Source of the DNA: Diaminobutyricimonas sp. LJ205
GTDB taxonomy: Bacteria > Actinomycetota > Actinomycetes > Actinomycetales > Microbacteriaceae
Assembly (NCBI RefSeq): GCF_009755725.1
Contig: NZ_CP046619.1
Location: forward strand, 1,798,001-1,862,000
Length of the DNA stretch: 64,000 nucleotides
Direction of reading: 5' to 3'
Program-made: the position numbers and the translations under genes
Part shown: piece after piece, positions 51,570-53,550 of the stretch
Layout: every line of letters begins with the position of its first letter
How positions within the stretch are numbered: the first letter of the stretch is position 1
Notes under the pieces: model-generated
The model's database searches: none
What the model saw: only the letters and a program-made list of their open reading frames with translations
Told to the model about the DNA's origin: nothing

Positions 51570-52655
51570 TCAGGCGAGGTTGGCGCCGAACGCGAGTCCG
51601 AGCAGGTAGGTGACGGCTGCCGCGCCGTAACCGATCAGCAGCTGCCGGATCGCGCGTGCGAGCGGGGATGCTCCCGAGAGCAAGCCGACGACCGCGCCGG
51701 TGATCAGCAACGCTATGCCGACAAGGATCGAAGCAACGATGATCGCCACCATCCCCTGGAGGCCGAACAGATACGGCAGTACCGGAATGATCGCGCCCGA
51801 GGCGAAGAACAGGAAGCTTGAGGTGGCCGCGCCCCACGCTGATCCGTGGGTCTCGTGCTCGGCGCCGACAACACGGACCGGTCCGGTTGCGTCAGCGCGC
51901 CAGTTGGCGATCACGTCGGCCGCGTGCCTGGCAGCCTCGGAGGCTTCCATCCCGCGAGCCCGATAGACCAGGGTCAGTTCGTTCGCATCGACGTCGAGTT
52001 TGGGCACCGCGCGCGTGGCATCCGGATCGGGAGTGCTCGCGTCAAGCAGTTCGCGTTGCGATCGCACCGAGACGTACTCGCCGGCACCCATCGACAGTGC
52101 TCCCGCGAGGAGACCGGCAACTCCGGTGAACAGCACGGTCTGGTTGGAGACGCCGGTGGCACCGATACCGAGCACGAGGGCCAGGTTCGAGACCAGTCCG
52201 TCGTTCATCCCGAAGACCGCGGCCCGGAAGGTGCCCGCCAGCCGGTTTCGGCCTCGCGCGGCGAGGGCTCGCACGACCTCGCCGTGGATGCGCTCGTCGG
52301 CGGCCATCGCGTCGGTCGCGTCGACATCCATGTCGTACGGCGACCGTGCCTCGGCGCGTTGCGCGAGCGCGAGCACGAACACCGATCCGAAGCGACGGGC
52401 CAGCCAGCCCAGGGCGCGAGTGCGCGGGGCTCCCTTGCGCGGTTTGCCGACCTGATCGCCGAGCAGCGCCAGCCAGTGCGTCTCGTGCCTGCGCTCCGCC
52501 TCGGCCAGCTCGAGCAGGATTTCTCGTTCTTCGCCCTCGCGTCGACCGGCCAGGTCGCGGTAGACGGCGGCTTCGGCGCGCTCGTCGGCGAGGTAGCGGC
52601 GCCACCGGCGGATGTCGGCCGGGCTTGGGTCGTGAGATACGCGTCGTTCGGTCAT
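51570..52655 (-). CDS. Ferritin-like/VIT1-CCC1 fusion transporter under Mn riboswitch
   Basis: 361 residues from ATG with GAGGAG five bases upstream. Residues about 14-125 form a ferritin/rubrerythrin-like helical domain with ligand-type residues Glu28 and E54-R-R-H57. Residues about 140-361 are a VIT1/CCC1 domain (FGMNDGLVSNLALVLG, then SMGAGEYVSVRSQREL) with five membrane helices. The layout is that of membrane-bound ferritin MbfA-type exporters of iron or manganese. The manganese riboswitch directly upstream points to manganese export. Iron cannot be excluded. Confidence 0.92.
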   Translation of the reverse strand: MTERRVSHDPSPADIRRWRRYLADERAEAAVYRDLAGRREGEEREILLELAEAERRHETHWLALLGDQVGKPRKGAPRTRALGWLARRFGSVFVLALAQRAEARSPYDMDVDATDAMAADERIHGEVVRALAARGRNRLAGTFRAAVFGMNDGLVSNLALVLGIGATGVSNQTVLFTGVAGLLAGALSMGAGEYVSVRSQRELLDASTPDPDATRAVPKLDVDANELTLVYRARGMEASEAARHAADVIANWRADATGPVRVVGAEHETHGSAWGAATSSFLFFASGAIIPVLPYLFGLQGMVAIIVASILVGIALLITGAVVGLLSGASPLARAIRQLLIGYGAAAVTYLLGLAFGANLA

Positions 52656-52850
52656 GCGGACTCCTCGGTCTGCCGACCGAAGGGCTGCGCGCGCCTTCGG
52701 CCGGAATCGGTCGCGCGAGAGCGCGGTCTGGCCGAAGGTCTCGCTCGCCCGCAACGCGGGTGGCACACCGGGCTTATCGCCAGTATGTCGATGTACCGTC
52801 ACCGTTTCTGTTATACCGAACCGGCGGGAGCTACTCCCCTTCGCCAGCCA
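52656..52850 (-). promoter_or_regulatory. yybP-ykoY manganese riboswitch with translational expression platform
   Basis: On the minus strand the aptamer hallmarks occur in order: GGCGAAGGGGAGTAGC (from 52845), ACATACTGGCG, and GCGAGCGAGACCTTCGGCC (ending 52730). P1 forms between GGCGAAGG (52845-52838) and CCTTCGGCC (52738-52730). Downstream, GGCCGAAGG (52702-52694) can pair with that same P1 3' strand or with CCTTCGGTC (52683-52675), which in turn can pair with ACCGAGG (52669-52663), masking the GAGGAG ribosome binding site. Mn binding stabilises P1 and should free the site, so expression rises with Mn. The whole 286-base gap to the next gene is otherwise empty. Confidence 0.92.
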
Positions 52851-52941
52851 GTCTAGCCAATCCCCTCCGCCATCCTTCGCAGCCCGTTCACGGCCACCCG
52901 GCCTAACCTGAGCACAACCCGTTTAGTCAAGGAGAACTCAC

Positions 52942-53550
52942 ATGGGCTTTTTGGACCGACTGCTTGGCCGCGAGAACAGTGACGAACCCCGCGCTCCGCG
53001 CCAGAACACTCCGGCTCCCGCCGCTCAAAGCGACGACCAGCGAGCCGTTGAACGTTACCGCTACCTGCTGCGGACGGCTCCGCCGGAGACGATCGAGCAG
53101 GTTCACGAAGAAGCCTTCACCAAGCTCACCCCGGAACAGCGGCGGATGCTGTTCGATGAACTGACCCGCAACGCTCCGGCGGGCGAACAGCCGCGAGGCG
53201 ACGACGCCCACTCGCTGGCCCAGTCCGCCACGCGCTCCGAACTCCGCCGACCAGGCACGATGGAGCGCTCCATGGGCGGACCGAGCTTCGGCTCGATGCT
53301 CGGCGCATCGCTGCTCGGAACCGTGGCCGGCTATGTGGTCGGCTCGGCACTGGTCGGTGCGTTCCTGCCCGGACCGGAAGCGGATGCCGCGGCCGGCGAT
53401 TCTGGCGCAGAATCAGCTGACGCCGGCGGCGGCGACACCGGTGGTGCCGACACCGCCGGCGCTGAAGGCGGCGACTTCGGTGGTGATTTCGGCGGCGGAT
53501 TCGGCGATTTCGGCGGCGGCGACTTTGGCGGCGGCGACTTCGGAATCTAA
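52942..53550 (+). CDS. Conserved hypothetical protein with Gly/Asp/Phe-rich tail
   Basis: 202 residues; AAGGAG upstream of the ATG. N-terminal GFLDRLLGR, then a soluble helical core DDQRAVERYRYLLRTAPPETIEQVHEEAF, LTPEQRRMLFDELTRN, then one hydrophobic segment (about 113-137, SMLGASLLGTVAGYVVGSAL) and a low-complexity tail of GGDFGG repeats. It is not an ATPase, although similar proteins are sometimes mislabelled so. Function unknown; the tail resembles flexible, phase-separating sequences. Confidence 0.78.
   Translation: MGFLDRLLGRENSDEPRAPRQNTPAPAAQSDDQRAVERYRYLLRTAPPETIEQVHEEAFTKLTPEQRRMLFDELTRNAPAGEQPRGDDAHSLAQSATRSELRRPGTMERSMGGPSFGSMLGASLLGTVAGYVVGSALVGAFLPGPEADAAAGDSGAESADAGGGDTGGADTAGAEGGDFGGDFGGGFGDFGGGDFGGGDFGI

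Follow-up and report, generated by a model that had tools for sequence, protein, structure and literature searches.

A yybP-ykoY-type Mn2+ riboswitch that probably controls translation of a rubrerythrin-like/VIT1 transporter, a putative Mn2+ exporter, in Diaminobutyricimonas sp. LJ205

In the stretch of 64,000 nucleotides analysed here (the window; Diaminobutyricimonas sp. LJ205, contig NZ_CP046619.1, positions 1,798,001 to 1,862,000), the minus-strand gene of a 361-residue transporter is preceded by a structured leader, which raises the questions of what this RNA senses, how it acts on the gene and which metal the encoded protein removes. By computation, we found an aptamer in the leader, its homology to validated Mn2+ riboswitches, four alternating segments and a conserved target gene. 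We consider it probable that, as a yybP-ykoY Mn2+ riboswitch, this RNA governs the translation of a rubrerythrin-like/VIT1 transporter, and that this transporter is a Mn2+ exporter.

The minus-strand leader, 52855-52656, contains a yybP-ykoY-type aptamer directly upstream of the gene (Table 1). Its hallmark motifs, GGGGAGTAGC (52839-52830), CGACATACTGG (52790-52780) and GCGAGCGAGACCTTC (52748-52734), were found exactly where an earlier reading made from the letters alone (the sequence-only reading) had placed them on this strand. In the predicted fold, P1 closes three hairpins (z -3.0 versus shuffles). An alignment of 43 non-redundant leaders, every one from actinobacterial records, yielded the consensus architecture P1.1-L1-P1.2, P3.1-L3-P3.2 and P4, in which 8 of 24 pairs had both partners substituted in a subset of the sequences; P2 was seen in single-sequence folds only. 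At P3.1, columns 67-69 (alignment A1) carried two-sided changes in 20, 22 and 8 of the 43 sequences, while GAAGGGGAGUAG and UCGACAUACUGG were kept without exception. A52786 in L3 is the counterpart of the Mn2+-sensing A48 of the X. oryzae riboswitch, which contacts Mn2+ via N7 in the crystal structure (PMC6754395). A search of 396 genomes from this order for the three motifs in sequence returned only 4, against none for the reversed pattern used as a control; in all four genomes they precede an orthologue of the VIT1 fusion gene, and a fifth case was found at locus L030. A partial-motif scan of named genomes returned at least 116 stretches, nearly all from Actinomycetota. Locus L104, on an archaeal contig, was rejected as a chance pattern match in which L1 is absent.

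Table 1. Features of the leader and of the regulated gene, in window coordinates and in the order of transcription
Feature	Position	Strand	Evidence or role
Probable -10 hexamer TAGACT (TANNNT)	52850..52855	(-)	Position-biased recurrence in leaders
P1.1 5' strand CGAAGG, with L1 loop GGGGAGUAGC	52843-52838; L1 52839-52830	(-)	GAAGGGGAGUAG invariant in 43 aligned leaders
P3.1 5' strand GGUACAUCG	52789..52797	(-)	Pairs with 52770-52762
L3 metal-binding loop ACAUACU	52782..52788	(-)	Invariant in 43 leaders; equals X. oryzae ACA48UACU (PMC6754395)
P3.2 hairpin GGC-GAUAA-GCC	52771..52781	(-)	Covarying pairs
P3.1 3' strand CGGUGUGCC	52762..52770	(-)	Partner of 52789..52797
P4 hairpin CCCGC-GUU-GCGGG	52748..52760	(-)	Covarying pairs
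Switch segment 1 (B) CCUUCGGCC, including CCUUCG as P1.1 3' strand	52730..52738	(-)	Pairs with CGAAGG or segment 2
Switch segment 2 (C, anti-P1) GGCCGAAGG	52694..52702	(-)	Pairing with B and with D conserved
Switch segment 3 (D, anti-Shine-Dalgarno) CCUUCGGUC	52675..52683	(-)	Pairs with C or segment 4
Switch segment 4 (E) GACCGAGGAG	52661..52670	(-)	Contains RBS GAGGAG 52666-52661, 5 nt before ATG
Rubrerythrin-like/VIT1 fusion, 361 aa, regulated gene	51570..52655	(-)	Pfam VIT1 E 7e-57 over 143-353

With the Rfam model RF00080, which the sequence-only reading had named as a check, a missing hit counting against it, the window leader scored 19.8 bits, formally short of the gathering cut-off of 45. 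In Rfam release 15, the validated E. coli mntP riboswitch scores 41.6 bits (L250, 962-1074), likewise under this cut-off, and alx is unlisted. The cut-off loses true members, and because a validated riboswitch falls below it, a score under the cut-off is no evidence against membership; we therefore dropped it as an insensitive membership test. A covariance model, R1, was built from 43 actinobacterial leaders, its training set being free of any E. coli sequence. In the leaders of the two validated E. coli genes, R1 recovered mntP at 38.7 bits (E 3e-9) and alx at 26.7 bits (E 5e-6), linking them to the actinobacterial leaders, and it gave 90.9 bits for the window leader, itself a part of the training set. 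From these sequence comparisons, it is close to certain that the leader is a yybP-ykoY aptamer, and its actinobacterial subgroup, in which UCGACAUACUGG and GCGAGCGAGACCUUCG never vary, is missed by the Rfam cut-off.

A search of 200 Microbacteriaceae genomes with R1 gave 68 matches, which precede 36 VIT1 fusion, 10 CaCA, 9 MntP and 13 TerC-like genes, the last being mostly lower-scoring and assigned by reading protein sequences; the VIT1 fusion is the commonest target of the aptamer in this family (36/68). The 200 genomes were taken as Microbacteriaceae from the match of genome G280 with the Okibacterium record L144. In the class, R1 matched 106 of 247 genomes, and 29 of the best new loci stand before GDT1 (26), MntP (2) and CaCA (1) genes. 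Mycetocola manganoxydans is among the carriers (locus L146). In Leifsonia, Microbacterium and Mycobacterium, CaCA (Na_Ca_ex) genes often stand behind this aptamer (L035, L060, L069 and 20 further loci), which suggests, by analogy, that this family may also export Mn2+. A contig filed as Vibrio cholerae 35D (L103) holds a fusion and leader that are Arthrobacter-like in the tree, probably through contamination of the record. The aptamer was found at 0 of 28 orthologous fusion loci from other families of the order (taken as best protein matches with the leader disregarded), and thus the fusion protein is not tied to the riboswitch; many of these 28 genes have no long leader, their start lying just after the preceding sequence. 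Mapping the riboswitch on the protein tree takes 5 changes, of which well supported branches force at least 2, so that the pairing is patchy but clustered. Among the papers searched, which lay outside the founding papers of the riboswitch, none connects yybP-ykoY to VIT1. This class of riboswitch is an established one; in those papers, the target gene and the subgroup appear undescribed, and the association with the gene may be new.

The protein had been read as a ferritin-like/VIT1 fusion. Its VIT1 part was firmly recovered with Pfam (193 bits, cut-off 28), and the structure model of residues 143-353 matches EgVIT1 (PDB 6iu4 and 6iu3; Foldseek E 1e-5 to 6iu4). For the ferritin-like part, the evidence consists of weak rubrerythrin matches and an invariant ligand set: the rubrerythrin profile gave 19.0 bits on the window protein, below its cut-off of 22.8, rubrerythrin matches were found within the first 140 residues in 17 of 25 orthologues, and E25, E54-x2-H57, E102 and E121-x2-H124, together an E/ExxH/E/ExxH set, are invariant. 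The N-terminal model is four-helix, with weak matches to the ferritin superfamily (best ferritin E ~0.4). Judged by these matches, an N-terminal rubrerythrin-like domain is likely, not proven.

As to the exported metal, the riboswitch could sense Mn2+ while the fusion exports iron, either as Mn-induced iron removal or as a shared detoxification that keeps the Mn/Fe balance. Alpha-proteobacterial MbfA fusions are reported iron exporters with ferroxidase domains (review, PMC7762939), and the invariance of the E/ExxH/E/ExxH set in the window fusion and its orthologues would fit such a role. However, GDT1, MntP and TerC genes of relatives are under this same aptamer, and upstream of 29 fusion orthologues the best-scoring DtxR/IdeR (iron) boxes were no better than shuffles. 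We therefore regard iron export alone as unlikely, though it is the strongest of the alternatives; a dual Fe/Mn substrate is possible. In the window, CAGGTTAGGC (52910-52901, minus strand), upstream of the promoter, resembles half a DtxR/IdeR box and does not exceed background.

Set against the iron-exporting MbfA precedent, the shared regulon is best read as pointing to Mn2+ export by the fusion, because in relatives the same aptamer precedes GDT1, MntP, TerC and CaCA genes, established manganese exporters among them, and because, in the window's genome, no GDT1, MntP or CaCA was found and the fusion is the sole VIT1 protein. The census of targets (GDT1, MntP, TerC, CaCA and the VIT1 fusion) makes a stronger case for a Mn exporter than did the sequence-only reading, which had proposed Mn in place of, or along with, iron. 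Other exporters may act beside the fusion, since three CDF proteins and two TerC proteins are also encoded in the genome. One TerC gene lies outside the window (G000:C1:2006000-2007100; L249, ~880-760, minus strand), and its leader, with GGGGAGUAUCCC, GUCAAUACGG and GGGAGAGACUUUCGG, looks by its motifs like a further, TerC-type Mn2+ riboswitch. Another TerC gene, in the window from 1821 onward on the plus strand, stands directly behind the preceding gene, without a riboswitch. The window also holds a TPP riboswitch at 47727-47617 on the minus strand, above the gathering score. For Microbacteriaceae and Micrococcaceae as a whole, we see an even chance that the fusion has replaced MntP/GDT1 as the main Mn2+ exporter, such that a family known for iron would hold a large Mn-export branch and the rubrerythrin-like domain may handle manganese.

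Ahead of the start codon (ATG, 52655-52653), the four segments that had been described as mutually complementary indeed read as such, with 9 bp for B:C, 9 bp with one G-U for C:D and 8 bp with one G-U for D:E. The B:C complementarity of the window leader was matched by 0 of 200 shuffles and is strong in 73 of 79 distinct leaders of the fusion gene. Furthermore, when segments were exchanged between leaders of the same gene (50-52 non-redundant leaders; statistics ignoring relatedness), own segments outscored swapped ones for B:C (23.3 vs 20.8) and C:D (21.1 vs 18.1; both p<0.0002) as well as for D:E, which includes the RBS (14.7 vs 13.7, p 0.005), and all three pairings exceeded shuffled controls. 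Leaders of the gene thus keep these pairings while the letters change together on both sides, as in CUUCGGUCAG/CUGACCGGAG with CUCCGGUC at locus L085, with U-G intermediates at L084 and L107 (e.g. CUUCGGUCAG/CUGGCCGGAG); a genome of the same genus (G400, locus L181) has the same layout in different letters. These comparisons argue that the four mutually exclusive segments are real. A duplicated switch, considered from the similarity of B to D and of C to E, was dropped, as this likeness follows from common complementarity and proves nothing.

In 78 of 102 leaders, the distance from the start of a TANNNT hexamer to GAAGG is 14-16 nt, compared with ~0.7 leaders expected per position; in the window it is 13 nt. 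Transcription would therefore start at or near P1.1, which would then be about six pairs long; in the window, the start is probably near 52844-52842. The outer bases (52845-52844) of the P1 5' strand proposed earlier (52845-52838) may therefore be untranscribed. In folds of transcripts ending at the start codon, loss of P1.1 made the RBS less accessible in 59 of 78 leaders and more accessible in 6, and in the window its unpaired fraction was 0.52 with P1.1 and 0.30 without. When the transcript of the window leader is extended, D pairs with the first codons as well, and RBS accessibility then hardly differs with and without P1.1; in such a fold, D would still cover the start codon.

We propose that, at low Mn2+, P1.1 would be unstable and B would pair with C, leaving D free to pair with the RBS and translation OFF. 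At high Mn2+, the ion, bound between L1 and L3, would stabilise P1.1, which would hold B; C would then pair with D, the RBS would be free, and translation would be ON, whereupon the fusion protein would remove Mn2+ from the cytoplasm. In relatives with a simpler layout (L191, L197, L202), B pairs directly with the RBS, and both layouts predict ON with Mn2+, the sign of regulation that we infer for the window. We regard it as likely that strand exchange turns translation ON.

Alternatively, the switch might act on transcription, either with the C:D hairpin as a terminator, so that Mn2+ would turn the gene OFF, or through Rho acting on the leader. Many leaders have a strong, G+C-rich C:D hairpin, and Rho is reported to act on the E. 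coli mntP leader (PMC11647493). However, no terminator-like site was found in 52500-53100, the fourth segment overlaps the RBS and pairs with D above both swapped and shuffled controls, and the simpler relatives pair B with the RBS itself. Control of transcription is thus quite improbable, and we retain translational control as the preferred reading.

Regarding the ligand, yybP-ykoY variants tuned to another divalent metal are suspected (PMC7266159), and the aptamer might belong to such a subgroup; however, L1 and L3 are invariant across the leaders of VIT1, GDT1, MntP, CaCA and CDF genes, and L3 is the Mn2+ loop of X. oryzae, so that we consider this very unlikely and infer Mn2+ as the ligand of the window RNA. 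A chance resemblance to the motif, which the RF00080 score below the cut-off might suggest, is refuted by recurrence before orthologous genes, and also by covariation and homology to mntP, and is barely conceivable.

Together, these data provide a regulatory argument, spanning dozens of species and directly testable, that a transporter branch annotated for iron may work on manganese, by which the Mn2+ riboswitch regulon would gain a widespread target gene. They also describe an actinobacterial aptamer subgroup missed by the standard Rfam cut-off, and a four-segment translational platform whose pairings are open to compensatory changes.

The yybP-ykoY Mn2+ riboswitches of E. coli (mntP/alx), X. 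oryzae and L. lactis (yoaB) have in common with the window leader the L1 sequence GGGGAGUAGC, the P1.1 switch helix, P1.2, P3.1, P3.2 and P4, and the L3 of X. oryzae, ACAUACU, is identical to that of the window. Different from these known members, the window leader belongs to an actinobacterial subgroup, carries a four-segment translational platform and precedes a new target gene. GDT1/UPF0016, MntP, TerC and CaCA genes under Mn2+ riboswitches share the aptamer subgroup and encode unrelated transporter families. With EgVIT1, the window protein shares the VIT1 fold over residues 143-353 at ~26% identity, and it probably has an extra ferritin-like domain in front. In MbfA of Agrobacterium and Bradyrhizobium, the VIT1 domain is preceded by a ferritin-like domain bearing diiron-type ligands, an arrangement that the window fusion probably shares; whereas MbfA is under Irr (iron) control and is a reported iron exporter (PMC7762939), the window fusion probably stands under a Mn2+ riboswitch instead.
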